NCBI GenBank assembly: GCA_903862465.1
Contig: CAIOYH010000092.1
Span: 1 to 44,062, forward strand
Direction: 5' to 3'
DNA: 44,062 nt
From: an uncultured bacterium
Lineage (GTDB): Bacteria > Bacteroidota > Bacteroidia > Bacteroidales > CAIWKO01
In this document: positions 398-44,062 of the stretch, in pieces
How positions within the stretch are numbered: the first letter of the stretch is position 1
Layout: each line of letters opens with the position of its first letter
Made by a program: the position numbers and the translations under genes
Notes under the pieces: generated by a model
The model's input: only the letters and a program-made list of their open reading frames with translations
Database searches by the model: none
Told to the model about the DNA's origin: nothing

Positions 398-2497
398 CTA
401 CGTTTTTTTATGTAGCAACCCTGCTTTTTCTAAAGCATTTTTCCAACTTCCAAATCTCAGATTATAAGTAGAAACTGCATGTTTTCCATTTTTACGATAA
501 TAGGTCATCAGAGATTCATTGCTTTTTTTAAATTTGTTAGCTTGTTTTAAATCATTAAGTAAATCCTCTTCTGATGCTATGACTTTAGGAATTTTTATTT
601 TATTATCGTTATTTATTCCGGCTTTTTGTAAAGCATTACTCCATTTGTGAAATTTTTTATAAATATGATTTCTGTTGAACTTCCCGTGTTTAATATAAAG
701 TGAGAAGGTCAGTTGGAAGTCGGGAAATTGATTTGCTACTTGTTTGATATCCTCTAAGCAGTCATTTTCTGTAACTTTTTTATTTAGTAATCCTGCTTTT
801 TCTAAAGCATTTTTCCAACTTCCAAATTTTCTATAAAATCCAGAAATTGCATATTTTCCATTTTTAGTATAATAAGATGACAAAGTTTCATTAGCTATTT
901 TATGTTTAGAAGCTTGTATTAAGTCATTTAGTAAATCCTCTTCAGAATTTCTGGGTTTATGAATTATTCTTTTATTTTCGTATTTTATTCCGGCTTTTTC
1001 TAAAGTATTTTTCCAACTTCCAAATCTTATATTAAAAGTAGAAATTGAATATTTTCCATTTTTAAGATAATAGGCACGCAAAGATTCATTGCTTTTTTTA
1101 TGTTTGTCAGCTTGTTTCAAGTCATTTAGCAAATCCTCTTCTGAACTTCTGGGTTTACGATTTTTTATTTTATAGTCGTTATTTATTCCGGCTTTTTTTA
1201 GAGCATTTTTCCAGTTTCCAAATCTCTTAAAATAAGTAGAAATTGCATATTTTCCATTTTTAAGATAATAAACATGGAGCGATTCATTATCTTCATTAAG
1301 TTTGTTTGTTTGTTTTAAGTCATTTAGTAAATCATTTTCTGAAATTTTGAATTTACGAATTGTTTTTTTATTCGAGTTGTCTATTCCGGCTTTTTGCAAA
1401 GCAGAAAGCCAACTGCCAAATTTATGACAAATTTGAGTTCTGCTGAACTTACCGTGTCTGGTGTAAAATGAGCAGTTCAGTTTATCATTGGGAAATTGGT
1501 TTGCTACTTGTCTGATGTCCTCTATATATTGATTTTCAATATTATTTTTATGTGGTAATCCTGCCTTTTCTAAAGCATTGTCCCAGCTTCCAAATCTCGT
1601 ATGATAAATAGAAATTCCATAATTTCCATTTTTACGATAATAAATTTGCAACGTTTCATTGTCTTTTTTATCTTGGTTGGCTTGTTTTAAGTCATTTAGT
1701 AAACTCTCTTCAGAGATTTTAAATTTATAAATGTTTATATTATTATCGTTTATGATTCCGGATTTTTGTATAGCATTGCTCCAACTGCCTAATTTAAAAA
1801 TAATTGCATATCTGCTGAATTTACCGTGTTTATCATAAAGTGAGCAGGTCAGTTTCAGATGAGGAAATTGATTTGCTACTTGCTTGATATCCTCTATATA
1901 GTCATCTGCTTTATTATTTTTATGTGGTAATCCTGCCTTTTCTAAAGCATTTTTCAAACTTCCAAATTTACTATAAAATGTAGAAATTGCATATTTTCCA
2001 TTTTTAGCATAATACGTTGACAAAGTTTCATTAGCTTTATTATGTTTGTAGGTTTGTTTTAAGTCATTTAGCAAATCTTCTTCCGTGATTTCGAATTTAT
2101 AATTGTGTATATTATTAGCGTTTATGATTCCGGATTTTTGTATAGCATTACGCCAACTGCCTAATTTATGAATAATTGCATATCTGGTGAATTTACCATG
2201 TTTTTTATAAAGTGAGTAGGTAAGTTGCGAGTTGGCAAATTGATTTGCCACTTGTTTAATATCTTCTAAATAGTCATTTTCTGTATAAATAGGAAATTGT
2301 TTTAAACCTGCCTGACTCACAATATGTTTCCATGAGCCAAATCTCTTTTCAACAGTTGAAAAAGCATACTTACCTTTAGATTTGTACAAAGATACTGAGA
2401 GTTTTTGACCAGGAGATTCATTTGCTACTCTCGTGATGTCATTAATTAAGTCAGCAATTGAATATTGTTGCTTTTTTCTTCTTGGTTTTTTTTCCAT
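398..2497 (-). CDS. 11-unit homing-endonuclease-associated repeat protein
   Basis: The protein of about 699 residues is built almost entirely from eleven units of 51-53 residues joined by short basic linkers. Each unit reads roughly LL.DLKQ...(N/K)..L..YY.KNGKY..ST...RFGSW.NALEKAGL, which fits the HNH/homing endonuclease associated repeat (PF18780 type), a predicted helical DNA-binding unit. Two subtypes are visible: A (EDIKQVANQFP...LY.KHGKF) and B (LLNDLKQ..K...NESL..YY.KNGKY). The order is N-A-B-A-B-A-B-B-B-A-B, with a divergent first unit. No HNH, GIY-YIG or other catalytic motif is present. A TTG-initiated extension from 2518 is possible, but the ATG at 2497 aligns with the start of the adjacent paralogue and is preferred. 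The N-terminus is very basic (KKPRRKKQQ). DNA binding is inferred from the family; the target is unknown. Confidence 0.85.
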   Translation of the reverse strand: MEKKPRRKKQQYSIADLINDITRVANESPGQKLSVSLYKSKGKYAFSTVEKRFGSWKHIVSQAGLKQFPIYTENDYLEDIKQVANQFANSQLTYSLYKKHGKFTRYAIIHKLGSWRNAIQKSGIINANNIHNYKFEITEEDLLNDLKQTYKHNKANETLSTYYAKNGKYAISTFYSKFGSLKNALEKAGLPHKNNKADDYIEDIKQVANQFPHLKLTCSLYDKHGKFSRYAIIFKLGSWSNAIQKSGIINDNNINIYKFKISEESLLNDLKQANQDKKDNETLQIYYRKNGNYGISIYHTRFGSWDNALEKAGLPHKNNIENQYIEDIRQVANQFPNDKLNCSFYTRHGKFSRTQICHKFGSWLSALQKAGIDNSNKKTIRKFKISENDLLNDLKQTNKLNEDNESLHVYYLKNGKYAISTYFKRFGNWKNALKKAGINNDYKIKNRKPRSSEEDLLNDLKQADKHKKSNESLRAYYLKNGKYSISTFNIRFGSWKNTLEKAGIKYENKRIIHKPRNSEEDLLNDLIQASKHKIANETLSSYYTKNGKYAISGFYRKFGSWKNALEKAGLLNKKVTENDCLEDIKQVANQFPDFQLTFSLYIKHGKFNRNHIYKKFHKWSNALQKAGINNDNKIKIPKVIASEEDLLNDLKQANKFKKSNESLMTYYRKNGKHAVSTYNLRFGSWKNALEKAGLLHKKT

Positions 2498-2557
2498 TTT
2501 GTTTAAATTATATTTCAATAAAATAATAGTACATTAAAACGGTTGATGTTATTTAGA

Positions 2558-2585
2558 AACTCTGAACTATAACCTATGAACTTCC
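2558..2585. repeat. heptamer repeat array (AACTNNR), about 4 units
   Basis: Degenerate 7-bp units beginning AACT, at 2558, 2565, 2572 (degenerate) and 2579. The array contains the TAG stop of the 8-unit repeat protein (2567-2569) and begins 61 bp upstream of the next start codon at 2497. Related arrays lie at 4184 and 5479. Confidence 0.6.
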
Positions 2586-4114
2586 TTATCGTTTTTAGGT
2601 AGTAATCCTGCTTTTTCTAAAGCTTTGCTCCAACTTCCAAATTTTATGTAATAACTAGAAAATGAATGCTTTCCATTTTTAAGATAAAAGGAACGCAACG
2701 ATTCATTGCTTTTTTTAAGTTTGGCAACTTTTTTCAAGTCATTTAGTAAAACCTCTTCGAAATTTTCGTATTTGGAAATTTTTTTCTCAGTATTATCTTT
2801 AATCCCGGCTTTTTCTAAAGCATTTTTCCAACTTCCAAATCTTTTATTAATAGTAGTAATTGAATATTTTCCGTTTTTACGATAATACTTTCTGAGATAT
2901 TCATTATTTATATTATGTTTGTAAGCTTGTTTTAAGTCATTTAGTAAATCCATTTCAGAGATTTTGCATTTATAAATGTCACGATTATGTTCATTTATTA
3001 TTCCGGCTTTTTGAAGAGCATTACGCCAACTGCCAAATGTATACTGAAATTGATTTTTGGTGAACTGACCATGTTGACAATAAAGTGAGTAGGTCAGTAG
3101 TGAGTTGGGAAATTGGGTTGCTACTTTTTTGATATCCTCTAAATAGTCATTTTTGGTGTATTTTTCAAATGGTATTCCTGCTTTTTCTAAAGCATTTTTC
3201 CATTCTCCAAATCTATAATAAAACGTAGAAATTGAATGGTTTCCATTTTTTATATAATAGGTAGAGAACGATTCATTATCATTTTTAAGTTTGTAGACTT
3301 GCTTTAAGTCATTTAGTAAATCCTCATCTGAATCTTTTAATCTACGAGTTCTTGGATTCTTCTGGTTGTCTATTCCTGATTTTTGTACAGCATTATTCCA
3401 ACTGCCTAATTTATAAATAATTGCAAATTTGCTAAATTTACCGTGTTTATCATAAAGTGAACAGCTCATTCGCAAGTTGGGAAATTGGTTTGCTACTTGC
3501 TTGATATCCTCTAAATAGTCATTTTCGGTGTATTCTTCAGATACTATTCCTGCTTTTTCTAAAGCATTTTGCCAACTGCCAAATCTCCTATGTATCGTCA
3601 CAAGTGAATATTTTCCATTTTTACTATAATAATTAAACATAGATATATTCTTATTTTTATGTTTGTTAGCTGTTGTTAAGTCATTCAGTAAATCTTGTTC
3701 AGAGAATTGGAATTTAGATATTTTTATTTTGCTATGGTTTTCTATTCCGCATTTTTGTAATGCATTACGCCAACAGCCAAATCTATAGTAAATTGTATTA
3801 CTTTTGTATTTACCGTATTTATCATAAAAATTCATTGTTAGTGACACATCGGGAAATTGGTTTGCTACTTGTTTGATATCCTCTAAAAAATCAGTATTGG
3901 AATAGGTATGAAATTGGTCTAAACCCGTTTGATTCACAGCCTGGGTCCAAGTCCCAAATGTTTTTAAAATGGCTGAAACAGTGAAGTTACCTTTTAATCT
4001 GTAAAAAGATTCTGTAAGTTTTTTATCAGGAAATTCATTTGCTACTCTTTTGATGTCTTGAATCAGGTCAACGCTTGTATAGTGTTGACTTTTTACATTT
4101 GATTTTTTTCCCAT
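2567..4114 (-). CDS. 8-unit homing-endonuclease-associated repeat protein
   Basis: A paralogue of the neighbouring 11-unit protein, 515 residues, with eight units in the order N-A-B-A-B-A-B-B and the same A and B consensus patterns (EDIKQVANQFP and LLNDLKQ types, each ending FGSW.NAL.KAG). No nuclease or other catalytic domain is seen. The start MGKKSNVKSQHYTS aligns with MEKKPRRKKQQYS of the paralogue. The 60-70 bp upstream of the two start codons are also similar: both hold a stretch like AAAACGGTCGATGCTATT (4154-4171; counterpart near 2536-2553), so gene and leader were duplicated together. It is transcribed just ahead of the 11-unit gene. Likely a DNA-binding protein; whether it regulates, protects or assists another enzyme cannot be read from the sequence. 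Confidence 0.85.
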   Translation of the reverse strand: MGKKSNVKSQHYTSVDLIQDIKRVANEFPDKKLTESFYRLKGNFTVSAILKTFGTWTQAVNQTGLDQFHTYSNTDFLEDIKQVANQFPDVSLTMNFYDKYGKYKSNTIYYRFGCWRNALQKCGIENHSKIKISKFQFSEQDLLNDLTTANKHKNKNISMFNYYSKNGKYSLVTIHRRFGSWQNALEKAGIVSEEYTENDYLEDIKQVANQFPNLRMSCSLYDKHGKFSKFAIIYKLGSWNNAVQKSGIDNQKNPRTRRLKDSDEDLLNDLKQVYKLKNDNESFSTYYIKNGNHSISTFYYRFGEWKNALEKAGIPFEKYTKNDYLEDIKKVATQFPNSLLTYSLYCQHGQFTKNQFQYTFGSWRNALQKAGIINEHNRDIYKCKISEMDLLNDLKQAYKHNINNEYLRKYYRKNGKYSITTINKRFGSWKNALEKAGIKDNTEKKISKYENFEEVLLNDLKKVAKLKKSNESLRSFYLKNGKHSFSSYYIKFGSWSKALEKAGLLPKNDKEVHRL

Positions 4115-4183: not shown

Positions 4184-4239
4184 AACTCTAAACTCCGAAC
4201 TAGGAACTCTAAACTATGAACTAGGAACTCTGAACTCAA
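4184..4239. repeat. heptamer repeat array (AACTNNR), 8 units
   Basis: Eight consecutive 7-bp units (AACTCTA, AACTCCG, AACTAGG and variants) in perfect phase. The array runs into the stop codon of the 415-residue-frame gene (4236-4238) and starts 70 bp upstream of the 8-unit repeat gene's start codon. It could be an operator array or merely a mobile simple repeat. Confidence 0.75.
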
Positions 4240-5459: not shown

Positions 5460-5478
5460 TTTTGAATTATGATTTATG

Positions 5479-5520
5479 AACAACGAACTCTGAACTACGA
5501 ACTATGAACTAGGAACTCTG
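5479..5520. repeat. heptamer repeat array (AACTNNR), 6 units
   Basis: Six in-phase 7-bp units (AACAACG, AACTCTG, AACTACG, AACTATG, AACTAGG, AACTCTG). The array includes the TAG stop of the 432-residue gene (5509-5511) and begins 71 bp upstream of the start at 5408. Confidence 0.75.
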
Positions 5521-6807
5521 AGCTAGATTTTCCTTTTTCAAGAAATCAAAATTTGCCGGCTCGCCCTTCCATACACGAGCCTCCAATATTTTTTTTCGAT
5601 TATCTATAGAATGTTTATGTTTCCCTTCTTCCGTGCCCCAATCGAATTCCTCACCGTTTTTTATACATTGTCGATAGTTATCAAAAATATAAGGAAGAAT
5701 TTCTATCATAGTTCTTTCTTCATATTGGTCATGTGCTTCTTTGATGGCTACACGAAAATCGTTGTTAGAATTTATGGGAACAAATTCATCTAATTCTTGT
5801 AAATAAATCACATCCATTTCTATTTCCTCACCGCCCTCCAATCTACGTTCCCATTCCCGAGTGGCGTGATAATATTTTTCTACCTCACGGGACTCTATAT
5901 TATGAACAAGTTCATCCATAATCTCCTTATTACGAACATGCAAATGAATATATTTTGGATCATTTTTATGCTCTTCTCTATACGCTTCATTAAGTTTTTT
6001 TATATGTTCATCTCTGATTTCTCGATTTTCATAATGTAATTTTCGCATGGCAAGCGATTGATATTTTCTAGTTTTTAAATACTCAGGCGATAGGGTTTGG
6101 GGATGTATATGTTCTTCCCAAATGTCATTATATTTTTCCTCTAGATCGGTGCGCCTACAGGGCAAATCTAGTAGGTAAGCTGTTCCAAACCAAGTATCAT
6201 AATAATAAAACCAAGGAGGAATATGTGTGATCGAATTCTCAATAAAACAAGATTGTTGATTATGATAATATAATATAGGTGCAACACAACTTGCCCATTC
6301 ATCGTCATATTCTTCATCAAATTCAAGTTTTTTTCTATTGCTAGGCACCCAATTTTTCAATTGTTTAAATTGCATATAACAATCCAATTCTTTTTGAGTG
6401 ATAGGCTCCACAAAAGTGCACGAATTCGGGTCATTAGCAAAATTAATAAAATCAACGGATGATTCAATCCCATCCAAATCCATCTCCCCTGCCACCCAAC
6501 GACATTTCATATCAAAAAGCTTTTTTAAAAAAATCTCATTAAACAGTTCCATCGCCTCCTCAAAATAATGATTATCCATGCGCAATCGAAACCGTAATCT
6601 ATCATCCGCATTAGCATACCAATCAGATTTGCGTTGTGCATAATATTTTATAAAGCTTTCAACCGATTGGGGATTATAGCCTTTAAAGAAATTCAAAAAA
6701 CGTTCTTCCGTTTGCAATTGTTTAATGGTTTCTTCATACATTTTACTCTGCTTTTCAGCTTTTTCAACATCTCTGTTTCTTAATTCTTCAAAAGGATTGT
6801 CAGTCAT
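5509..6807 (-). CDS. conserved charged protein, family unknown (paralogue of 4236-5408)
   Basis: I do not recognise this 432-residue protein. It has no signal peptide or transmembrane stretch, so it is probably cytoplasmic. It is strongly charged, with a predicted helical Glu/Arg/Lys-rich centre (EEHIHPQTLSPEYLKTRKY onward). It shares blocks with the next gene: ERFLNFF/IFLSYL near the N-terminus, KKLFD.KC.W..GE.D, C(S/T)F(I/V)EPI.Q, and the C-terminal GEPANFDF. It is the first gene of a four-gene same-strand run (two unknown paralogues, then two repeat proteins). The last codons and the stop lie in a heptamer array, so the extreme C-terminus may be a recent replacement. No promoter box was seen in the 500 bp upstream. 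Confidence 0.7.
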   Translation of the reverse strand: MTDNPFEELRNRDVEKAEKQSKMYEETIKQLQTEERFLNFFKGYNPQSVESFIKYYAQRKSDWYANADDRLRFRLRMDNHYFEEAMELFNEIFLKKLFDMKCRWVAGEMDLDGIESSVDFINFANDPNSCTFVEPITQKELDCYMQFKQLKNWVPSNRKKLEFDEEYDDEWASCVAPILYYHNQQSCFIENSITHIPPWFYYYDTWFGTAYLLDLPCRRTDLEEKYNDIWEEHIHPQTLSPEYLKTRKYQSLAMRKLHYENREIRDEHIKKLNEAYREEHKNDPKYIHLHVRNKEIMDELVHNIESREVEKYYHATREWERRLEGGEEIEMDVIYLQELDEFVPINSNNDFRVAIKEAHDQYEERTMIEILPYIFDNYRQCIKNGEEFDWGTEEGKHKHSIDNRKKILEARVWKGEPANFDFLKKENLAQSS

Positions 6808-7308: not shown

Positions 7309-7760
7309 GGAAGAGACTTATATTCTCACGGAATTGAATTATATCCTGACGGAAGAGACTTATAAACTGACGGAAATGATTTCAAAACTCACGGAATTGA
7401 TTTCACCGTTTAAGGAAGCAACTTCAAACCTCACGGAAAAGACTTCTAAGCTAACGGAAGAGACTTCGTCCATTAAAACTTGACTGCTATGCTAGCGGAA
7501 GAGAGTTATACGCTAACGGAAGACACTTCACAGCTAACGGAAGAGACTTATAAACTAGCGGAAGACACTTCACAGCTCAAGCGGAGCATACTTTTTGTGC
7601 GGAATTCAATTTAAAATACGCGGAATTGACTTATAAACTCACGGAAGACACTTCTGAATTGACGAAAGAGACTTTAAACCCAACGGAAGCGACTTTAAAC
7701 CCAACGGAAGCGACTTTAAACCTGAAGGAATTGAGTTCAATATTACGGAATTATATAATC
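7309..7760. repeat. 21-bp tandem repeat array, about 21 units
   Basis: The sequence GGAA recurs at 7309, 7330, 7351, 7372, 7393, 7414, 7435 and 7456 at exactly 21-bp steps, and again at 7497, 7518, 7539 and 7560. After a degenerate stretch near 7580-7600 it returns at 7622, 7643, 7685, 7706, 7727 and 7747. The core is CGGAAGAGACTT followed by a TA-rich half. Because 21 is a multiple of three, the array translates as a pseudo-heptad (LTEETSK), but those short frames lack other gene signals. The last units overlap the stop codon of the lipoprotein gene (7743). Confidence 0.9.
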
Positions 7761-15926: not shown

Positions 15927-16138
15927 GTTGATTATATTATAATGTATAGATTTAGGTGGTGAGTTGGAGAAGTTTTTTTCTGTTAGAGGAGGGACGATTT
16001 TTATTAGTTTGATTTGAAATGGGCTATTTGTCTTCGGTGGTGACGCCGTTGTTGATGGTTTGGGAGATGAAGCAAGGAATTCGGCGGTGATGTTCCATAA
16101 AGCAATGGGGAGTTGACCACGAAGTGTTGTTTGTTTTT
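15927..16138. other. intergenic, no gene seen
   Basis: A 62-residue minus-strand frame crosses part of this stretch, but it has no start signal and runs into the tandem array. No domain or signal was recognised. The G-rich, C-poor plus strand contrasts with its surroundings. Confidence 0.4.
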
Positions 16139-16375
16139 GACAAAGGCTTCCGAAACCTTTTGGGGAGGATTGTTCGCTCCTGACAAAGGCATCCTAAACC
16201 TTTCGGGAGGCTTTGTTTGTTTTTGACAAAGGCATCCTAAACCTTTCTAGAGGCTTTGTTTGTTTTTGACAATGGCATCCTAAACCTTTCGGGAGGCTTT
16301 GTTTGTTTTTGACAAAGGAATCCTAAACCTTTAGGAAGTGTTTTTTATTTTTGACAATGGCACACGAATGTGTAA
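16139..16375. repeat. 43-bp tandem repeat array, about 6 units
   Basis: TGACAA recurs at 16139, 16181, 16224, 16267, 16310 and 16352 (steps of 42-43 bp). Units contain GGCATCCTAAACCTTTCGGG and a T-rich tail. They are nearly identical in the middle and diverge at both ends. No unique spacers, so not a CRISPR. Confidence 0.9.
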
Positions 16376-16384
16376 AAAGGGGGT

Positions 16385-16634
16385 GTTCCGTACGGGATAA
16401 AGGGCGTTCCGAACTGGGTAAAGGGCGTTCCGAACGGGCTAAAGGTCGTTATACAACGGGCTAAAGGGCGTTAGGTAACGGGTTAAAGGGCGTTAGGTAA
16501 CGGGTTAAAGGGCGTTATACAACGGGGTAAAGGGCGTTCCGAACGGGCTAAAGGGCGTTATGTAACGGGCTAAAGGGCGTTATACAACGGGGTAAAGGGC
16601 GTTAGGTAACGGGCTATAGGGCGTTTTTGCCACG
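16385..16634. repeat. 21-22 bp tandem array of CGTT/AACG dyads, 12 units
   Basis: GTT of GGCGTT recurs at 16385, 16406, 16427, 16448, 16470, 16492, 16514, 16536, 16557, 16579, 16601 and 16623. Each complete unit holds a small inverted repeat CGTT-core-AACG followed by GGGYTAAAGGG. The core changes between units: CCG (21-bp units), ATAC, AGGT or ATGT (22-bp units). The last unit is degenerate. It starts directly after the 43-bp array and ends about 70 bp before the -7 box of the rightward gene. Confidence 0.9.
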
Positions 16635-18613: not shown

Positions 18614-19204
18614 CTATCTGTACAATTGCAGCATCCCACTACGAGTTTTGGACTCTCCTGAAAGAGTTTTATATCCAATAGTATAATAATAGTACCCTGT
18701 GGGCATATCCTGTCCATTATATTTTCCGTCCCATTTGCCCGCCACATCACTTGTAGCAAAAAGTTTGGTATTGCTTTGGTCGTAAATTTTTAAACTGTAA
18801 TTTTCAGTACTGATATTAGAGAAAAATGGAAACCAATAATCATTTTTGCCGTCGCCATTCGGAGAAAAAGAGTTGGGAGCATAACAATCGCCACCATTAT
18901 TAAACACGACTACTTGGTAGTTGTCAACCCCAGTATGCGTAGTAACTTGAACCGAATAAGCCCCTTCCGAACTCACAGTTATAGTAGCCGTAGTGTCGCT
19001 GTTGGGTGTCCATAAATAATTGGTTGCTCCTGCATCTGTGGCATCCAAAGTCAAGATGGTATTTTCATCCAACGAATACTCCATATAAGGCGTGTTCACC
19101 TCCAAGGTATCATAAAGAGTTACGGTAGGCGGTGTCTCTTGTTTTTTACAAGAATATCCTAAAAGCAGCAAAGCAGGAAGCAAAAATAAGACAGTGCGTT
19201 TCAT
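18614..19204 (-). CDS. lipoprotein with T9SS type B (gliding-motility C-terminal) sorting domain
   Basis: A 196-residue protein. The signal ends in a lipobox LGYSC (Cys19). An Ig/PKD-like beta domain follows (about 27-100). Residues 107-196 form the CHU_C/type B sorting domain, recognised by APNSFSPNGDGKNDYW and the later WDGKYNGQDMPTGYYYY...SGMLQL pattern. Type B domains direct proteins through T9SS. The combination with a lipobox is unusual for a soluble cargo and suggests a surface lipoprotein or a part of the T9SS attachment machinery. It is the third gene of an operon with an ECF sigma factor and an anti-sigma/PorP fusion, 15 bp after the latter. PorP/SprF proteins are known to be linked to type B cargo, so the pair fits. 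Confidence 0.85.
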   Translation of the reverse strand: MKRTVLFLLPALLLLGYSCKKQETPPTVTLYDTLEVNTPYMEYSLDENTILTLDATDAGATNYLWTPNSDTTATITVSSEGAYSVQVTTHTGVDNYQVVVFNNGGDCYAPNSFSPNGDGKNDYWFPFFSNISTENYSLKIYDQSNTKLFATSDVAGKWDGKYNGQDMPTGYYYYTIGYKTLSGESKTRSGMLQLYR

Positions 19205-19219
19205 GAGAAACTAGACTTA

Positions 19220-20941
19220 TTAACGTGTTTTTCCGAATTGGAAGCGTAAACTAACACCGGCATAATCAACAATCCCAAAATTGTCCATCAGGTCTTTGCT
19301 CATTGGAACGCCACCGTGAAGATTTAAGATGAAATTATTCTTAATGTTACATCCTAACACTAATCCGGCAGTCTTTAAGTTCTGAAACTCTAATCCAAAT
19401 AGCAACCATCTGTTATAGGCAAACAACATATTAGGTGTAAAATTCATAGTATGTGCGTTATATTTGAGTTCAACTGCAGGCAGCATATCCACTGATTTGT
19501 TCAACTTAAATGAATATCCTGACGACAAGGTGAACTCACGTGGAAGTCTCGAATTGCTTATCAACCCAACATTCGGGCTGGTCAAATGCGATGCAGAAAC
19601 TCCCACATATAAGGATTTCCAACTATACCACAAACCCAAGCCCAAATCAAATTTACTAACACCATCGTGTCCAGGACCAACTTCATTGGTGTTATAAACA
19701 AATCCTTTATTTCTATCAATCATATCAGGGAAAGTCAAAGCAGCGAAGTTTACACCGCTTGTGAAATAAGATGCCGAAACACCAACCCGCAAATAATGAT
19801 CTTTAGCCAAATAAAAACGATACGCAAAGGTTAAATCAACATCCAATGAGCCTTCTGCGCCACCAACATACCTTTTATAATTTATGCCTAAACCATAATT
19901 ATTTTTTTTGCCGAAGTTAAAATCGTAAGCAATGCCATATTCAAACGGAACAGTAAAATCAGAAGCAGGTTTAAACATTGGCTTATGGACTATTGTTGAA
20001 AGGACAACCGTGTGTTTTTGATTAAATCCTGCAAAAGCGGGATTTGAAACAACCGAATTCACTACACTAACTTTATAGTCAGGTGCTGCTTCCATATTTG
20101 CCTTACTATTTTCCGAAGCGTTTTTAGCCTTAAGTGCAGCATTCTTAAAATGCTTTGCGTCCTTATTTTGTTTCTTAGCTAAATAATCCTCCGTAACCGA
20201 AGTGTAATTCGAATTTTCCTCACTAGATGTTGGATTAAGTTCTGCTTCGCTCAAACCTTTATCGTTTCCCGTTCCAACAGTAGCATTCGCATTTGTTTGG
20301 TTTTGGATGTCAGTATTCGCATTATTGACAACTATATTGTCCGCAACAACATTTTCCGGTTTCGCCTCGTATTCAACTTTCGATTTAATCGTCATTTGTT
20401 GGGTACCATCAGTCTTTACATTCGAAACCGCCAAAGCATTCGAATTTGCTACAACATTGGTTTGAATAAGATTCTTCTTAACAGTGATATTTTTCTTTGT
20501 AGATTTTTGTATAGGTTGAATCGTAGTAGGATTCGATGTTTTAGGATGATTAGCTTCGATAGCTGAATTAGCATGTATTGAATTAGCTTTTTCTGCTTTT
20601 TGTGAGTTTTCAGCAAGAGCCACTACAGAAGTCCTATTCTGATTCAGTGAAGCGGCTTGTTGACAGTTGAGGGTTTGACTTTGAGCAAAAGTTTGGTTTT
20701 TGTTATATTGGGTTTGCAATTTCTCCGATAATGTATAGGTATAAATACCTGTACAAACTATAATAAATGCCGATATTATGAGCAGAATACTGGTAATGCT
20801 TTTGCTCGAAGCCTCACCACCGACTTTGCTTGTATTCTCAAGCGCCGATTTCATCATCTGCCAATGTTCCGGCACATACTCGGGGCTATACCCTTCGAGT
20901 TTTGACCTGAACAAGTCGTCTATATGATTTCTTTTATCCAT
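19220..20941 (-). CDS. anti-sigma-like N-terminus fused to PorP/SprF-type outer-membrane barrel
   Basis: A 573-residue protein. Residues 1-45 (DDLFRSKLEGYSP..VPEHWQMM) look like the short cytosolic helical segment of Bacteroidota anti-sigma proteins. One membrane helix spans about 49-70. Residues 72-290 are a long Asn/Gln/Lys/Thr-rich low-complexity linker. Residues 293-573 match PorP/SprF: the landmark SNPAFAGF (299-306), alternating beta strands such as YGLGINYKRY, LYVGVSASHL, and a terminal strand YAGVSLRFQFGKTR. No signal peptide precedes the helix. As drawn, one chain would run from the cytosol through the inner membrane and periplasm into an outer-membrane barrel. Its start overlaps the end of the sigma gene by 8 bp, so the two are translationally coupled and the N-terminus probably holds that sigma factor. 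Fusions of this shape with other barrels occur in the phylum as far as I recall. Confidence 0.8.
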   Translation of the reverse strand: MDKRNHIDDLFRSKLEGYSPEYVPEHWQMMKSALENTSKVGGEASSKSITSILLIISAFIIVCTGIYTYTLSEKLQTQYNKNQTFAQSQTLNCQQAASLNQNRTSVVALAENSQKAEKANSIHANSAIEANHPKTSNPTTIQPIQKSTKKNITVKKNLIQTNVVANSNALAVSNVKTDGTQQMTIKSKVEYEAKPENVVADNIVVNNANTDIQNQTNANATVGTGNDKGLSEAELNPTSSEENSNYTSVTEDYLAKKQNKDAKHFKNAALKAKNASENSKANMEAAPDYKVSVVNSVVSNPAFAGFNQKHTVVLSTIVHKPMFKPASDFTVPFEYGIAYDFNFGKKNNYGLGINYKRYVGGAEGSLDVDLTFAYRFYLAKDHYLRVGVSASYFTSGVNFAALTFPDMIDRNKGFVYNTNEVGPGHDGVSKFDLGLGLWYSWKSLYVGVSASHLTSPNVGLISNSRLPREFTLSSGYSFKLNKSVDMLPAVELKYNAHTMNFTPNMLFAYNRWLLFGLEFQNLKTAGLVLGCNIKNNFILNLHGGVPMSKDLMDNFGIVDYAGVSLRFQFGKTR

Positions 20942-21503
20942 TAATTACTAACTCCTTTATATTTAAACCTGTTATTTTCTTCATCAAAGCTCTTCGCGCC
21001 GTCAACAAATGCCATTGCGATGTACTAACCGTGATATTCAGTGCTTCGCCAATTTCTTTATGACTGCAATTATCAAACACAAACATATTAAAAACCATTC
21101 TGTTAACAGGGGGAAGTGTCTGAATAATATTTATCAAATCTTCCTCATTAAGATGACTCAACGCGTCATTTTCAAAATAGTATTCATCATCGTTTAAATT
21201 AAGCGGCACTGTTTCCATGTGCCTATTCTTCTCAAAACGAAGTTTATCCAAAGCTGTATTCACCATAATTTTCCGAATCCAACCATTCAACAATGTGCCG
21301 TCTCCATCATATTTGTCAAGGTTTTGAAACACCTTCAAGAATCCGGTATTCAAAATCTCAACAGCATCATCAGGATTTTTAGCATATCGCAAACATACAT
21401 TCATCATTGGACAATAAAATAATTTATACAGCTTTTCCTGTGCAGTTGAATTGTTTTCTCTGCAAAGTCTTACGAGATCTTTCAATTCGTTGCCTGGATT
21501 CAT
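20934..21503 (-). CDS. ECF-type RNA polymerase sigma factor
   Basis: A 189-residue sigma-70-family protein of ECF size. Region 2 is seen at about 25-95 (LYKLFYCPMMNVCLRYAKN.DDA.EILN.GFLKVFQNL, then GWIRKIMVNTALDKLR). Region 4 is at about 125-180, with the helix-turn-helix HKEIGEALNITVSTSQWHLLTARR. No sigma-1.1 or region 3. It is the first gene of a three-gene operon and overlaps the anti-sigma/PorP gene by 8 bp (stop at 20934, next start at 20941), the usual arrangement for a sigma factor and its regulator. Its regulon may include T9SS genes by analogy with P. gingivalis SigP, but that is inference. Confidence 0.9.
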   Translation of the reverse strand: MNPGNELKDLVRLCRENNSTAQEKLYKLFYCPMMNVCLRYAKNPDDAVEILNTGFLKVFQNLDKYDGDGTLLNGWIRKIMVNTALDKLRFEKNRHMETVPLNLNDDEYYFENDALSHLNEEDLINIIQTLPPVNRMVFNMFVFDNCSHKEIGEALNITVSTSQWHLLTARRALMKKITGLNIKELVING

Positions 21504-21869: not shown

Positions 21870-22060
21870 AAATTCAAACCTCGGCTATCGAATTAACAAC
21901 CCCCGATGTCGAAACTCAAACCCCCGATACCAAAACTCAAACCCCTGCTATCGAAACTCAAACCTCCGATGTCGAAACTCAAACCCCCGATATCAAAACT
22001 CAAAAAACGGTAGGCAGAATTCGAACCCCCGTAGGCAGAATTCGAACCCCCGATGTTTTC
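21870..22060. repeat. 21-bp tandem repeat array, about 9 units
   Basis: Motifs AAACTCAAACCCCC or AATTCGAACCCCC recur every 21 bp (about 21871, 21912, 21933, 21954, 21975, 21996, 22017, 22038). The joining half is GATGTCG, GATACCA, GCTATCG or GTAGGCAG. In one frame it reads as TPDVETQ-like heptads. Confidence 0.85.
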
Positions 22061-28301: not shown

Positions 28302-28393
28302 ATTTTTTGAAATGTATTCATAATAATTTCGACTTAAAAACTCGAATCTTTGTCAATATAATCACTAAATTATTAATCAAAAAATTCAAGCTT

Positions 28394-29767
28394 ATGAAAA
28401 AAAATTACCTAATTATGATTATTGCCCTAATGGGTTTGATAATCAACAATGCTTCTTCTCAAACTTTTACAAGCGGATTAGAAACATGGACATCTGTAGC
28501 ACCGATAAAACCTACTGATTGGTTCGGTTCCAAAACAAGTATTGTGGGCGACAGTATATTTCAGTTCACAACAAGTGTCCATGGAGGAACTTATGCATGT
28601 CAATTGAAAAGTAGCACCACTTCTCATAAAAGATTTACTACTGTGGGAGTTCCTATTATTGCAGGAAAAACATATCAAATAAGTTTTTGGGTGCGAGGAC
28701 ATGGCGATATACGCACAGGCTGTTACAAAGGTTTAGGAAGTAATGGCGCGACATATTATGCTTACAATCCTTACATTATTTTAGATACACTTGGTTGGAA
28801 GCATTGCATCCAAAGTATTACTGTTGATACAACTTCTGCTTCTGCGCAATTTATTATCTCTGTAAGAAATACTAGAGTAGATAAAGGTTATATTCAAGTG
28901 GATGATGTTAACATTGATACCGTTTCGGTTGCTCCTGTTTCGATACATGATATTCAATATGCGACAACAGCACCTTATATCTCTCCATATAATGGACAAA
29001 ATGTGATTACCGGAGGAATTGTCACTGGAAGAGCCAACAAAGGTTTCTTTATTCAAAATGCCTCAGGTCCATGGAATGGATTATATGTATATGATTCTGC
29101 TCATGCAGCAACAGCAGGGCTTGTTAGAGGCGATTCTATTATCATCGCTGGGACAGTTTCTGAATATCTAACTTATACAGAACTTGGCAATGTGACCAAC
29201 CTTACCAAAGTATCATCGGGAAATGCACTACATGCTGCATATCCGGTTACAACGGTTAATGCTACTACCGAATCTCTCGAAGGTGTACTTGTATCATTAA
29301 CCAATATGCCATGTGTGGATGCATCAGGTTCGGCTGCTTATGGTGAATGGATCGTCTATAATGGAACTGATTCAACCAAAACGGGTGGGCTTTTATATAA
29401 ATATACTACTGCGATTGTAGGAACACACTATGATATTACGGGTATTGTTTATTTAGCTTATGGCGGTGTGATGCGCGTTGAACCTAGAGATATAAATGAT
29501 GTTCAAGTAAGCTCAGGTATTGCCAAAAACGAACAAAATCTCGTAAATATGTATCCCAATCCTACCTCATCTATTTTAAATATCGGTAACATCGAAGGCA
29601 TCCAACAAATCCGCATCACGAATCTTTTGGGTAAAACGATAGCAGTTCATGCTGTTTCGGGCAACAATTCTAGCATAGATGTGAGCACTTACACCTCGGG
29701 TGTCTATTTTGTTTCTTTTATAAAAGACAATGCTATAAGCGGAACACGCAAGTTTATCAAACAATAA
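28394..29767 (+). CDS. secreted multidomain protein with T9SS type A sorting signal
   Basis: About 457 residues from the ATG at 28394 (MKKNYLIMIIALMG...NASSQT, a clear signal peptide); the frame also opens at 28307, but that extension is not signal-like. A jelly-roll, carbohydrate-binding-like domain follows (TFTSGLETWTSV ... YIQVDDVNID, about 25-180). Next comes an OB-fold region of the DUF5689/YhcR type (GGIVTGRANKGFFIQNASG ... TGIVYLAYGGVMRVEPRDI). The C-terminus is a type A domain with MYPNPTSSILNI and the final KFIKQ. Expected to be exported by T9SS and attached to or released from the surface. No catalytic motif was recognised, so it may be a binding protein. An intrinsic terminator follows. 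Confidence 0.8.
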   Translation: MKKNYLIMIIALMGLIINNASSQTFTSGLETWTSVAPIKPTDWFGSKTSIVGDSIFQFTTSVHGGTYACQLKSSTTSHKRFTTVGVPIIAGKTYQISFWVRGHGDIRTGCYKGLGSNGATYYAYNPYIILDTLGWKHCIQSITVDTTSASAQFIISVRNTRVDKGYIQVDDVNIDTVSVAPVSIHDIQYATTAPYISPYNGQNVITGGIVTGRANKGFFIQNASGPWNGLYVYDSAHAATAGLVRGDSIIIAGTVSEYLTYTELGNVTNLTKVSSGNALHAAYPVTTVNATTESLEGVLVSLTNMPCVDASGSAAYGEWIVYNGTDSTKTGGLLYKYTTAIVGTHYDITGIVYLAYGGVMRVEPRDINDVQVSSGIAKNEQNLVNMYPNPTSSILNIGNIEGIQQIRITNLLGKTIAVHAVSGNNSSIDVSTYTSGVYFVSFIKDNAISGTRKFIKQ

Positions 29768-33475: not shown

Positions 33476-34050
33476 TAATTCGATTGTAAGCTTTTTGTGG
33501 ACTCTTGCAAAAAATAAGAAAATTTTTTATTCTTAAATTGGCTTAATTCAATGGAGATTGAACCTGCAAATTTCGAACAAATGACTTTTTTTGTTTTATT
33601 ATTATATTTCATCCAACAAAATTAAACATTTCCCCAATACATCCCCCCATTTATTTTCATTTTTCCATCATATCACAAAAAAACACCAAAACCCATACAA
33701 CTTATGCCATAATTTATTATTTTTGCAATCAAAAAAAAAGAAATGTAAACGCCCCAACAAAAAAAGTAATTTATTGTTTCATCCCGAAAACTGTTTATTA
33801 TGGAAAGGTTTGAAATTCCATTCAAACAATCATGGAGCGAATGTGATTATACTTGCATTGAAATTCTGTTTGAATAAAAAAGACTTCCTTTCAAGGCAAT
33901 TAGTAAACAGAAAAGTGATTTTATCGGTCAACAAAATTGGGTTCTTTGCCTTATTATTTTGTTTTAAGGCAATTAAACCGATTTTTTATGCCTTTGTAAG
34001 TATCTGTAAATAAACATTAAAAAAATCTCGGGACAGTATTTCTCTGACAT
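33476..34050. other. intergenic region with orphan promoter box and a possible tiny ORF
   Basis: TATTTTTG at 33718-33725 fits a plus-strand -7 box. A 25-codon frame at 33800-33877 (MERFEIPFKQSWSECDYTC...) follows, but support is weak. A 140-residue A/T-rich frame (33591-34013) is probably chance, being Lys/Asn/Phe/His-rich without a recognisable domain. A small RNA or small peptide from this box is possible. Confidence 0.3.
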
Positions 34051-34327
34051 ATGATATCATAAATCTGAGAAATGGTATCATAAATCAGATATATGACATC
34101 ATAAAACTAGGAATGATATCATTCATCAGACACATGATGTCATCACCCTAGAAATGATATCATTCATCAGACAAATGGTTTCATAAAACTGGAAATGATA
34201 TCATTCATCAGACACATGATGTCATAAAACCGGAAATGATATCATCCTTCAGACACATGATATCATCACACTAGAAATGGTATCATCCTTCAGACACATG
34301 ATATCATCACACTAGAAATGATGTCTT
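34051..34327. repeat. 20/21-bp alternating array of ATGATATCAT palindromes, 14 units
   Basis: The 10-bp palindrome ATGATATCAT or a one- or two-base variant begins at 34051, 34072, 34093, 34113, 34134, 34154, 34175, 34195, 34216, 34236, 34257, 34277, 34298 and 34318. After the third unit the steps alternate strictly 20 and 21 bp, giving a 41-bp higher-order unit, with alternating spacers TCATCAGACAC-like and AAAACTGGAA-like. No coding. Confidence 0.95.
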
Positions 34328-37282: not shown

Positions 37283-40200
37283 TTACTTCTGAACTATTAT
37301 CTTCTTCGTCACCAGCCCCAACGCCGTTCGAATACTGACGAAATAGATACCCGAGTTCTTATCCCCTAAATCTATGGAGATTACTTTCGTGAAGACTCCT
37401 TTTTCCGTGCGCTGCATCACCTGCTTGCCTTGTATGTCGAATACTTTGATGTCAACATCCTGCATATTGGGCAAAGCCAAATCTAAAGTAAACTTTCCCG
37501 CAGAGGGATTCGGATACAACTCTATGCTTTCCACAGGCGTCACCTCATTATGATTGAGATAATAACCCACCGTAAATTGACAATACACCTGCGAACCGAA
37601 GTCGGCATTGAAGGTCTTTATCACCACACCGTCGCTCGCCCGACGGATGCGGATATAGCCTGCACCATCGGAATTCGCCCAAAAAGACAAGCCATCATCA
37701 TCGTTATCTAAAAGCGTGAATTCATAGCAGCCATTGGTCAGATGAACGGTATCCTTATACACGGTGTTCGCCGCAAATGTGTTTTTATACAAGAGGGTAT
37801 TGCCTTGGTCGTCCTTCAGCATATAGGAGTTTTCGTTGGGGTAGAGATTGGATTTAAACTCGATGATGATATCGTTAGGGAATTGCGGCGGAGCGCTATA
37901 GGTGGTTTTGACGGTGTTGTTATAGGAATATTGGTCAGCGCCGCCATTGGGAGCCGAAACGGTGGCATAGAAGGTTCCGTTGGAGCCTGTCCATTGGATT
38001 GCAGCCAGTCGGACGTCTTGGAGTTCCATAAACTTCAGATTGCCCGTCCAATGATACACCGAGGGCGTGGTGCCGATGCCTTCCACGCCGTAGATAATAT
38101 CGAGCGAGGTTAAAGTGGTGGAGCCTGTGTTGCGAATCGTCACCAGCGGATTGTTGCAAATTGGGTTCTTGCGCGAATAGATTTGCGCTTTGGTGGGCGT
38201 TTTGATTTCGTACAATTCAGCATCGAGAGTGAAGTTGGCAGCGCCATAGGACACCAATTGCGTCTCAATTTGAAAGTTGGGCGCCGAACCTTGTCCATTC
38301 CAATTATACGCATCAATGTTATAATCCAAAGAAGTGGAATCGCCAGGCGTTACGTAAGGCGTCAATTCAAAATCGTAGGTGTTGGCAATGCCGCCCGGGC
38401 ACCAATTGGCGCGGCTATAGACCCAGGTACCGCCTTGCGGAAAAATGGGATTCACGCCGCAATCGTCGCGCCACACCGACTTGCTAAATCGTTGCGTCCC
38501 ATCCACGAATATATAATGCGTTTTGGCGCAGAACTCTGCACAGTTTTCCAAATCACCCATGCCATGCCCTGTGGGACGTATTTTAATGCGAGTAGAAAAG
38601 GCATCCGAAGCAATCTTCACCTTGCGGGCAGACAACACAGTTTCGGTGTTGGAGTTATACCAATAGGTGGAGCACCACAAGTTTTTTATCGTCTTGGGGT
38701 CGCGGGGCGGCGTTCCTTTGATAAATTCAAAACGCAGGTCAAGCAGCTCCTGCCAATTGCCGGCAGACAATTGCACGGAGTCGTGAAGCAGCGTCCGATA
38801 ATCAGACACATCAAACACCCAGGTGAAACCATTGCCCAAGCTGAGCCCGTTGCCGTAAGGGGTAATCAGTCGTTCCAATTCGTAGCGATTCACCACCTCG
38901 AAATGCGGACTATAATAATACCAATGTTTCAGGTGTATCGTCGAATCGGCTTGCACCAAAGTGGAATCTGTGGCAACGCCCAAATGATTATACGCATAAT
39001 GATTGTAATACGGTGTCCAAACTGTCATGGTGTCGTGACACACCAAGGGCTGCAATGAATCCGTATAGAAAAAGATTTGCATAGGATCGGATGGCAACGA
39101 GTCTATCGTGATGAGGGTATCAATTTGAGCTGTGTAAACGCCTTGCTCAAAAATCAGGTTCGGACGCAGTGACGTTTCCTGAAAGTTGCGCACGATCTCG
39201 CTGCCTTTTGTATAGGTGAAAACAGGCAGACCGAACAAATTGCCCGTATGCGCTCCGTTGCTCGAATCGGCGGCTGTGTTCGGAGTGTTGTCGTTAAACT
39301 TATAATACAATTGCAGTTTGTTGCTAAAGGGATGCGACGCATTCAGGTCTTTATACATCCATTTGTGTATAGTAGCCGAGTCGAGTTCTACATTCCAAAC
39401 CGCAAACTCATCCATAGAGCCATCGTAATTATAGCCAATATCGGTCCACAAACAGGTGCCGATTCTGAACTTCTTGATGCCGCGCATGCATTTGGTTAAG
39501 GCGGTGCCCGAATGCCACAACAGACCGTTGAGATAAATCTTTTGATTGCCCGTGGCAGCGTTTTTGGTAAAAGTCCAATAGTTCCATTTGCCTTCAATTT
39601 CGGCAGTGGTGGCGGCTTTGTTGATGCGGTCATACGACCCGGTGTTGTTGTTGCCGGCATCCCAATACACATTGCTGTTCGACCAAGGCAAATGCACATT
39701 AATCACGCGATTGTTCAACGAATCATACGCTTCAAAAGCAGATTGGTCTTGAGGCTGAAAAGCGGGATTGCCATACGCCCAGAAGGAAACGGTGATGGCG
39801 CTGTCAATGGCTGCTGTTGCCTCTTTCGGCACGTTGATATAATCGGCGCCCATAAAGAACAAAGCCTTATCGTTGCCCGCCGAGGTGATGCCGCTCTTGC
39901 TGCCCGTGTTTTCCGCATAAACGCTATTGGAGGTGCCCGATGCGCCATTGTCGAATGAAATATCAATCAATATATTTTGCAGACCATCCCAGTTGAAGGC
40001 GTTGATAAAATGGATGATATTCCAACCGTTAGCCGTGAAGGTGGTGGTATTAGAATATACCGTAGTGAAGCCCGAATTCTCAAATTGTGAGGAGGTCAGC
40101 GAATCTAAAGCGGAATGTTTTATGCGTATGGTGAGGTTTTTCAGTTGACTGCCATGTCCTTGCAGATTGAAACGCAAGCCGCTGATGTCGCCCGCATGTA

Positions 40201-40723
40201 ATCCTGCTGAAAGGAGTTCAGGGACTTTCCATAGAAACTGCGAACGACTCTCAGCATAAGCGGAATTGAAAGGCGTGGTAGAAATTTGATTTCCATTACC
40301 CATATAAGTTGAATCGAAAGACGTGATGCCTGTGTAGTTTATGTTTGTGTTGAAGTGGGGGGAATATTTCCATGAGGGTTGAAACATAAACTTCAATGAA
40401 TCGGGACTCGCACCATTGACCACATAGCTGGGCGCGTTCAACAAAGTGGAATCCAACATGCCTGTGTGTTCATACACGTATGTCGAGGTTTGGTAATCCC
40501 ATTCGCCGCAAGCGGGACTTTGAGCCGGATTGCATTTAAGGGTGTAATACATCAATATTTTGTTGGTGCGCATCGTGTCGGATGGAAACACATACCACGA
40601 GTTTTGAGGGCTGCCAAAGGTGAATGTTTGCACTTTTACGGTATCACCCGGGCTTGCCTGCACTATAAAAGTGGAAAAACAACACAGAAATACAAATACT
40701 TTAAAGAGGATAAATTTAGTCAT
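37283..40723 (-). CDS. PNGase F-like glycosidase with LamG domain and T9SS type A signal
   Basis: An 1146-residue secreted protein. A signal peptide (1-24) is followed by a PNGase F N-terminal-like start with CGEWDYQTSTYVYEHTG (about 72-88), where Asp76 is placed like the catalytic Asp in the CD.WDR motif of PNGase F. A LamG/concanavalin-like domain lies at about 285-475 (KALFFMGADYINVP ... GSMDEFAVWN...YYKFND). The peptide-N-glycosidase-like region at about 530-860 includes ENCAEFCAKTH and WRDDCGVNPIFPQGGTW...NWCPGG, the most distinctive block of the family. The C-terminus has LYPNPSAGKFTLDL and ends KKIIVQK, a type A domain. Expected at the surface or secreted, removing N-linked glycans from glycoproteins. 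Compared with classical PNGase F (about 314 residues) it is more than three times longer. Confidence 0.85.
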   Translation of the reverse strand: MTKFILFKVFVFLCCFSTFIVQASPGDTVKVQTFTFGSPQNSWYVFPSDTMRTNKILMYYTLKCNPAQSPACGEWDYQTSTYVYEHTGMLDSTLLNAPSYVVNGASPDSLKFMFQPSWKYSPHFNTNINYTGITSFDSTYMGNGNQISTTPFNSAYAESRSQFLWKVPELLSAGLHAGDISGLRFNLQGHGSQLKNLTIRIKHSALDSLTSSQFENSGFTTVYSNTTTFTANGWNIIHFINAFNWDGLQNILIDISFDNGASGTSNSVYAENTGSKSGITSAGNDKALFFMGADYINVPKEATAAIDSAITVSFWAYGNPAFQPQDQSAFEAYDSLNNRVINVHLPWSNSNVYWDAGNNNTGSYDRINKAATTAEIEGKWNYWTFTKNAATGNQKIYLNGLLWHSGTALTKCMRGIKKFRIGTCLWTDIGYNYDGSMDEFAVWNVELDSATIHKWMYKDLNASHPFSNKLQLYYKFNDNTPNTAADSSNGAHTGNLFGLPVFTYTKGSEIVRNFQETSLRPNLIFEQGVYTAQIDTLITIDSLPSDPMQIFFYTDSLQPLVCHDTMTVWTPYYNHYAYNHLGVATDSTLVQADSTIHLKHWYYYSPHFEVVNRYELERLITPYGNGLSLGNGFTWVFDVSDYRTLLHDSVQLSAGNWQELLDLRFEFIKGTPPRDPKTIKNLWCSTYWYNSNTETVLSARKVKIASDAFSTRIKIRPTGHGMGDLENCAEFCAKTHYIFVDGTQRFSKSVWRDDCGVNPIFPQGGTWVYSRANWCPGGIANTYDFELTPYVTPGDSTSLDYNIDAYNWNGQGSAPNFQIETQLVSYGAANFTLDAELYEIKTPTKAQIYSRKNPICNNPLVTIRNTGSTTLTSLDIIYGVEGIGTTPSVYHWTGNLKFMELQDVRLAAIQWTGSNGTFYATVSAPNGGADQYSYNNTVKTTYSAPPQFPNDIIIEFKSNLYPNENSYMLKDDQGNTLLYKNTFAANTVYKDTVHLTNGCYEFTLLDNDDDGLSFWANSDGAGYIRIRRASDGVVIKTFNADFGSQVYCQFTVGYYLNHNEVTPVESIELYPNPSAGKFTLDLALPNMQDVDIKVFDIQGKQVMQRTEKGVFTKVISIDLGDKNSGIYFVSIRTALGLVTKKIIVQK

Positions 40724-43693: not shown

Positions 43694-43750
43694 GGGTTAG
43701 ATATCAGAGAAACAGCGAAGAGAATTAATCAATATCGTAGTTTTTTTTGA

Positions 43751-44062
43751 GAATATGCTACCGCCAAAAGTTGCGGATGCATAAACTTTCAGGAATATGC
43801 TACCGCCAAATGTTGCGGATGCATAAACTTTTAAGAATATCGCTCTGCAAATATCTGCATACGCATAAACTTTTAAGAATATCGCATTGCTAAAAGTTGC
43901 GGACGCATAAACTTTCAGGAATATGCTACCTCCAAAAGTTGCGGATGCATAAACTTTTAAGAATATCGCTCTGCAAATATCTGCATACGCATAAACTTTT
44001 AAGAATATCGCATTGCTAAAAGTTGCGGACGCATAAACTTTCAGGAATATGCTACCTCCAAA
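43751..44062. repeat. 42-bp tandem repeat array, at least 8 units, runs off the window
   Basis: GAATAT recurs at 43751, 43793, 43835, 43877, 43919, 43961, 44003 and 44045, always 42 bp apart. Units fall in three types: A (GCTACC.CCAAA), B (CGCTCTGCAAATATC) and C (CGCATTGCTAAAAG), in the order A-A-B-C-A-B-C-A. The 126-bp block B-C-A at 43835-43960 is repeated without visible change from 43961 to the edge, a recent duplication. Every unit ends in GCATAAACTTT. Confidence 0.95.

Follow-up and report, generated by a model that had tools for sequence, protein, structure and literature searches.

A three-gene operon in an uncultured Bacteroidales bacterium (GTDB lineage CAIWKO01; assembly GCA_903862465.1) encodes an extracytoplasmic function (ECF) sigma factor, a fusion protein that joins an anti-sigma-like N-terminus to a PorP/SprF-family outer-membrane barrel, and a short protein, here gene 3, with a lipoprotein-like start and a type B C-terminal domain (CTD) of the type IX secretion system (T9SS). 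The operon was found on contig CAIOYH010000092.1, a stretch of 44,062 nucleotides referred to below as the window, and the three-gene observation itself is confirmed as real (Table 1). We give an even chance to the reading that it forms a switch like the dual membrane-spanning anti-sigma (Dma) proteins, in which the outer-membrane end is a T9SS carrier of type B cargo and the state of this carrier is coupled to cargo transcription. Sequence evidence favours this: the fusion and its neighbours are conserved in three genomes, the N-terminus resembles those of 49 sigma-adjacent proteins, all eight members found of the barrel clade are paired with a CTD lipoprotein gene, and an exact promoter-like motif occurs 11 times in the window's genome against 0 in the control. 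How Bacteroidota sense the state of type IX secretion is poorly known, and the operon offers candidates for the sensor, its ligand, the sigma factor and the promoter motif, together with a set of candidate targets. If the reading is true, the cell may read its own secretion status.

The genus sample consisted of four genomes, the window genome (G000) and G001, G002 and G003. The sigma gene product matched Pfam Sigma70_r4_2 and Sigma70_r2, both above cut-off, and its gene shares 8 bp with the fusion gene (20934-20941). G001 holds the complete set of sigma, fusion and gene 3 with the identical 8-bp overlap. In G002 the fusion and gene 3 are present, and an assembly gap truncates the sigma gene, leaving the end of its reading frame (QWHLLNARRILMNRIQKLNSKKAIING) beside the run of N, with the same 8-bp overlap to the fusion. 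The full-length fusion was present in three of the four genus genomes (G000, G001, G002), and the two orthologues had identities to the window copy of 64% and 48% for the fusion and 72% and 57% for gene 3. Because the gene and domain matches hold and the arrangement recurs across genomes of the genus, chance or a local assembly error is unlikely. A search of 393 genomes of the order with the whole fusion, in which the best three or fewer candidates per genome were scored, gave full-length matches only in the same three genomes among the matches listed, and a profile of the three fusions found no further full-length match among the best six or fewer candidates per genome in 198 genomes of the phylum. 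The fusion is rare within the genomes searched. A possible fusion in G429 was rejected because its frame is over-long and shows, by eye, no N-terminus of anti-sigma type, and the N-terminal matches in G582 and G543 were sigma-adjacent proteins without a PorP match.

Residues 1-69 of the fusion matched, at E 2.1e-13, a profile built from 49 N-termini of other sigma-adjacent proteins (9 of 58 were excluded for doubtful starts or odd layouts). The three fusions gave E values of 2.1e-13, 8.5e-13 and 5e-12 and the best decoy 0.0036, all within a small test set. The strongest hydrophobic stretch of the protein begins at residue 48. The barrel, about residues 286-541, matched PF11751 at E 3.6e-27 and TIGR03519 at 109.6 bits (cut-off 90.55), the corresponding scores in G001 and G002 being 107 and 98.2 bits. 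The TIGR03519 match starts at model position 23; where PorP/SprF proteins have a signal peptide directly ahead of the barrel, the fusion has the anti-sigma-like N-terminus, the helix and the linker. Gene 3 scored 57.5 bits with PF13585 and 55.3 bits with TIGR04131, both above cut-off, and its middle part gave only one weak match to solved structures (9ncf_S, E 0.0011, an immunoglobulin-like protein). The first-pass annotation of this DNA had described such an operon, and the coordinates, strands and 8-bp overlap that it gave are all correct. Its layout of an anti-sigma-like tail, a helix, a linker of about 220 residues and a PorP/SprF barrel agrees with the profile match, the hydrophobicity and the family matches, with a predicted linker of about 215 residues. 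It had also assigned gene 3 a type B sorting domain, which the family searches bear out, and a lipobox, which is less canonical than proposed (LLGYS-C, with Gly at -3), yet the Cys-Lys-Lys-Gln is invariant in the three orthologues.

The tail comparison and the tree place the fusion barrel in a PorP clade that is rare and has no C-tail of the usual kind. Conventional PorPs finish with a short C-terminal tail, and a Cys was found within the last 25 residues in 24 of 31 unfused PorP relatives, always as single cysteines without CxC; the periplasmic C-tail is absent in all three fusions, which stop at the last aligned strand. Four unfused relatives (one each of families f13 and f27, two of f28) have a tail of 0-6 residues, a class that is narrow at its edge: L043 extends 6 residues past the last fusion column, whereas L003, which was placed with the tailed barrels, extends 7. 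In a tree of 44 barrels, made after trimming 12 residues off the tailed ends, the three fusions and the four tail-less barrels fell together on the same side of a branch, supported at 100/99, that separates L043 from L003, and two of the three long end branches of this tree fall within the group. A profile search of the 393 order genomes recovered the seven known members and added an eighth, G238:C23 (E 6.6e-75), after which the matches dropped off to 9.4e-33; this eighth barrel also has no C-tail. Against solved structures the barrel profile gave 0 matches.

In all eight members found of this clade, a short type B CTD lipoprotein gene comes next downstream. The genes directly after the four unfused tail-less barrels encode proteins of 121, 127, 198 and 125 aa with lipoprotein-like starts, three of them above the TIGR04131 cut-off and the fourth below it (26 bits). 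G238:C23 is followed by a type B CTD gene of 133 aa that scored 36 bits against a cut-off of 35, and this pair was found after the rule had been seen. Among 37 other PorP-like genes, none had a downstream type B CTD gene in the fetched flank (mostly 1.5 kb, shorter at contig ends) by a five-sequence CTD profile; such a gene lay just upstream in three and about 1.9 kb upstream in one (L088). Fisher's test of four of four unfused tail-less barrels versus none of 37 gave 1e-5, for cases that are not independent owing to kinship. In a quick tree the CTDs of these pairs clustered with a support of only 20. Each barrel and its partner can be regarded as a two-gene module: the carriers of this small clade lack the tail that joins SprF to the gliding track, and each is accompanied by a short type B CTD lipoprotein. 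At L264:7548-10574 (G238:C162), such a module is convergent with a sigma/anti-sigma-like pair, as neighbours and unfused.

The motif CCAAGTT-N15-CGTTTA is common to the window and G001 within an otherwise diverged region upstream of the sigma gene. Exact counts of CCAAGTT-N15-CGTT (reversed-pattern control in brackets) were 11 (0) in G000, 7 (2) in G001, 0 (2) in G002 and 6 (2) in G003. With one mismatch allowed, G000 had 8 sites versus 8 in the control, which is no enrichment by count, and a longer form of the motif gave 13 versus 5. One G000 site is that of the operon itself. On C73 two sites precede a tandem pair of type B genes of 1007 aa and 1070 aa, the latter below cut-off; on C198 a site precedes a type B gene of about 1056 aa, and on C32 one precedes an operon in which a small gene is joined by a type B gene of 871 aa. 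Three more stand before a type A gene of 1329 aa (C110), a Usp-family gene (C23) and a 198-aa gene (C68); the site on C51 has no open reading frame (ORF) ahead of the contig end, that on C152 spans the start of an opposite ORF and that on C186 lies inside an ORF. Type B genes or operons thus follow four of the ten non-self sites, for which P is 2.9e-6; with the C73 tandem pair counted once this becomes three of nine (P 1.1e-4). These values use the 41 type B matches of G000 and an assumed 3600 genes, and the inclusion of the C32 operon is a choice; the CTD search of this genome gave those 41 type B matches (38 above cut-off) and at least 150 type A matches. Of the seven G001 sites, one belongs to the operon, one precedes a type B gene of 891 aa and two precede type A genes; another stands before a gene of at least 581 aa that the contig end truncates, one is in an opposite ORF and one is unclear. 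Those in G003 precede type B genes of 1073 aa and 1072 aa (below cut-off), a small-gene/871-aa type B operon (47.1 bits), a 198-aa gene and a 317-aa gene, and one is inside an ORF.

The motif may, however, belong to one or more other ECF sigma factors that transcribe this operon as well as type B cargo, in which case the sigma factor paired with the fusion would have different targets. G003 carries the motif with no found copy of the operon, G000 has 12 to 14 sigma matches, and ECF motifs can be shared, overlapping regulons having been suggested in Flavobacterium (PMC9723704). We regard this explanation as unlikely, though it deserves serious weight: none of the 11 exact sites is on the contigs of the four other placed G000 sigma genes (C170, C29, C184, C27), and the sigma genes of C170 and C29 have GCAACC-type upstream sequences by eye.

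Several observations weigh against the carrier-coupled switch itself. The link between motif and sigma factor is suggested by position alone. In G002, where the sigma promoter falls in the gap, no exact site occurs (control 2), and G003 (81% complete) gave no match in a search with the whole fusion, yet it has six motif sites, three of them before type B genes or operons. The full 11-letter core with a spacing of 15 stands directly before only 3 of the 39 scored type B genes in G000 (gene 3 itself and C184 were left out of the 41), and 10 of the 11 letters at a spacing of 14 before two of the 39; in the C32 operon the core precedes the first gene and not directly the type B gene. The motif would serve no more than a small part of the type B cargo. 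Sites also occur before type A cargo, the Usp protein and the 198-aa protein, and three of ten have no proper target. Furthermore, all five unfused clade barrels are below the TIGR03519 cut-off or do not match: four scored 67 to 90 bits, just or well below, and G238:C23 had no NCBIfam recognition. AlphaFold2 returned a mean predicted local distance difference test score (pLDDT) of 37.4 for the fusion, from an alignment of only 4 rows, and of 37.6 for gene 3, from only 3 rows.

In the switch that we propose, residues 1-47 of the fusion would hold the sigma factor and the CTD of the lipoprotein would be a resident ligand of the barrel, which it might reach via the T9SS or another surface route. 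Altered loading of the barrel would be transmitted along the linker to the inner membrane, and the released sigma factor would transcribe its own operon and type B cargo genes, so that cargo production would be matched to the state of the type B carrier. A tail-less carrier tied to an inner-membrane anti-sigma could report its own loading, with the lipoprotein as the natural candidate ligand. As to the sign of the signal, we lean to a loaded barrel freeing the sigma factor rather than an empty one, because SprF needs loading by SprB before its periplasmic tail bonds GldK: two tail cysteines are reported to serve this bond, and SprB must be exported and loaded before it forms (PMC12635249). The tails of the unfused PorP relatives, with their single cysteines, might by analogy act like the SprF tail. 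The case of PorA in Porphyromonas gingivalis suggests a logic opposite in kind. There, this small CTD protein is reported to relay a surface signal to PorXY-SigP, an ECF sigma pathway controlling the T9SS, and uncleaved CTD protein, accumulating as secretion falls, raises T9SS expression; the details of the pathway were called still unknown (PMC7712824). That system differs from ours in using a two-component system, in having no carrier-anti-sigma fusion in that account and in that the PorA CTD binds PorV (PMC7712824).

Dma1-3 of Bacteroides thetaiotaomicron are described as reaching from the outer membrane to the cytosol and occurring only in Bacteroidota, with a cognate ECF sigma gene adjacent for Dma1 and Dma2 (PMC13088901). 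The fusion is similar in its envelope-spanning layout with the cognate sigma gene adjacent (in the window and G001, with the sigma end left in G002), in its anti-sigma-like N-terminus and single inner-membrane helix as judged by profile and hydrophobicity, and in a probable C-terminal outer-membrane barrel indicated by family match. Unlike Dma, by its published description, the outer-membrane part is a T9SS PorP/SprF barrel and a type B CTD lipoprotein gene stands beside it (PMC13088901). PorP/SprF-like carriers are reported to be bound by type B CTD proteins, which then remain on them (PMC9143113, PMC12618676), and the window shares with PorP-PG1035 and SprF-SprB the barrel family and a carrier gene adjoining a type B CTD gene (PMC9143113, PMC12618676, PMC12635249). 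It differs in the anti-sigma-like N-terminus in place of a signal peptide, the missing C-tail and the short lipoprotein-like partner instead of an adhesin. Within the sampled portions of the open-licence literature, most subscription papers being outside this scope, neither a PorP/SprF-anti-sigma fusion nor a CTD-bearing anti-sigma was described.

The fusion might alternatively be a generic Dma-type anti-sigma, in which the barrel does no more than form the part in the outer membrane and responds to envelope stress or a non-T9SS ligand, with the lipoprotein as an accessory lid or plug. At 30 order loci from the sigma search, the downstream gene was PorP-fused in 2 (window and G001) and carried a type B CTD in 6, and in 22 it did neither, many of these proteins having barrel-like ends by eye. 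The first-pass annotation had asked how often PorP/SprF fusions sit beside ECF sigma genes, and at these loci it was 2 of 30. Among five other sigma-neighbourhood proteins, three matched Pfam outer-membrane barrel families (one above cut-off) and two matched nothing. Published Dma proteins are reported to act on vesicles and polysaccharide loci (PMC13088901), and the fused barrel has no C-tail like that of ordinary carriers. We nevertheless find this generic explanation rather doubtful in view of the type B CTD partner gene in all eight clade members and the motif sites ahead of type B cargo genes. The same pairing and sites, together with the CTD-bearing anti-sigma-like proteins that adjoin some relatives of this sigma factor (described below), lend independent support to the core of the trans-envelope sensing of type B substrate or T9SS that the first-pass annotation had suggested, the general architecture being already published as Dma, a family which that annotation did not name. 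That the fusion is chiefly a carrier or anchor of the lipoprotein tied to the inner membrane, with sigma control incidental or lost, fits the four of five unfused clade loci that have no sigma gene in the fetched stretch, but it is improbable given that the N-terminus matches anti-sigma N-termini and is by eye the best conserved stretch of the fusion (residues 23-34 invariant in three orthologues) and that the sigma and fusion genes overlap like a co-translated pair.

In FlgM-FliA, sigma activity is tied to the state of an export machine, and in FecA-FecR to the state of an outer-membrane barrel. These are different proteins from the window fusion, and the likeness is one of logic only. We would tentatively extend the switch, at somewhat below even confidence, to a general proposal: some Bacteroidota may couple type B cargo transcription to export status through anti-sigmas bearing either the T9SS type B signal or a type B carrier, as a logical counterpart of the FlgM checkpoint in flagella. 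In the genus studied here, a tail-less carrier with a sentinel CTD lipoprotein, a module that exists unfused elsewhere, would have been joined to an anti-sigma, turning the carrier into a sensor.

Five of the six CTD-bearing genes downstream of sigma genes are intact (L014, L015, L018, L025, L026), all with Pfam CHU_C above cut-off, and L030 has a CTD piece beyond an in-frame stop. In the phylum sample, the five-sequence CTD profile identified a CTD-bearing anti-sigma at 3 of 30 loci, of which NCBIfam was above cut-off only for the window genome's own locus (L252/L173), far below for L230 and without a match for L229. At this own locus, G000 has a second sigma gene adjoining a CTD-bearing anti-sigma-like gene (L173 7362-8381, 339 aa, TIGR04131 53.6 bits). 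Giant ORFs come after the CTD-bearing gene, in the same orientation, at three loci, with lengths of 1079 and 2545 aa (L068/L103), 3021 aa (L101) and at least 2716 aa (L102, running off the contig); TIGR04131 was above cut-off for the first (49.5 bits) and below for the next two (30.6 and 30.8 versus 35). The one-strand row at these loci consists of a sigma gene, the CTD-bearing anti-sigma-like gene, a small gene of 142-190 aa and the giant type B-like ORFs, and the two small genes tested gave no Pfam family. An 868-aa type B gene is found about 3.6 kb from the second G000 pair (L173:7362-8920, G000:C29). At L071:8018-9331 (G050), a CTD-bearing anti-sigma-like frame is broken by an in-frame stop ahead of the CTD.

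Table 1. Features of the sigma-fusion-gene 3 operon in the window.
Feature	Position	Strand	Basis
Sigma gene, ECF-type, 189 aa	20934..21503	(-)	ORF and Pfam/NCBIfam
Fusion gene, 573 aa, 8-bp overlap with sigma gene	19220..20941	(-)	ORF and Pfam/NCBIfam
Anti-sigma-like cytoplasmic N-terminus, residues 1-47	20801..20941	(-)	Profile of 49 sigma-adjacent N-termini; putative function
Predicted inner-membrane helix, residues about 48-70	20732..20800	(-)	Peak of hydrophobicity at residue 48
Periplasmic linker, residues about 71-285 (~215 residues), poorly conserved	20087..20731	(-)	Alignment of three orthologues
PorP/SprF-family barrel without C-tail, residues 286-573	19223..20086	(-)	TIGR03519, tail comparison, tree
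Gene 3, 196 aa, lipoprotein-like start and type B CTD	18614..19204	(-)	ORF, Pfam, NCBIfam, orthologue alignment
Lipoprotein-like signal, Cys at residue 19	19148..19204	(-)	CKKQ invariant in three orthologues; putative lipidation
T9SS type B CTD, residues 109-196	18617..18880	(-)	TIGR04131 and PF13585
Promoter-like site CCAAGTT-N15-CGTTTA, 20 nt ahead of sigma start codon	21523..21550	(-)	Shared with G001; exact genome search

Some further features of these genomes were recorded. The motif or a near form of it stands before a Usp-family gene in three genomes of the genus (G000:C23:27573, G001:C18:31730, G003:C489:32204), the Usp family being confirmed by Pfam in G000 only. Window genes at 28307-29767, 37283-40723 and 40910-43693 end in type A CTDs. 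The window also contains tandem arrays that repeat at about 21, 42 or related periods (4184-4237, 5463-5525, 7309-7722, 16127-16625, 21870-22052, 34046-34322 and 43745-44062), which are mostly intergenic, one of them being upstream of the sigma operon, and low-complexity ORFs resembling these arrays occur on other G000 contigs as well. Long tandem repeats at 791-2277 and 2808-3887, with periods of about 198 and 372, lie inside two large minus-strand ORFs at 398-4114.

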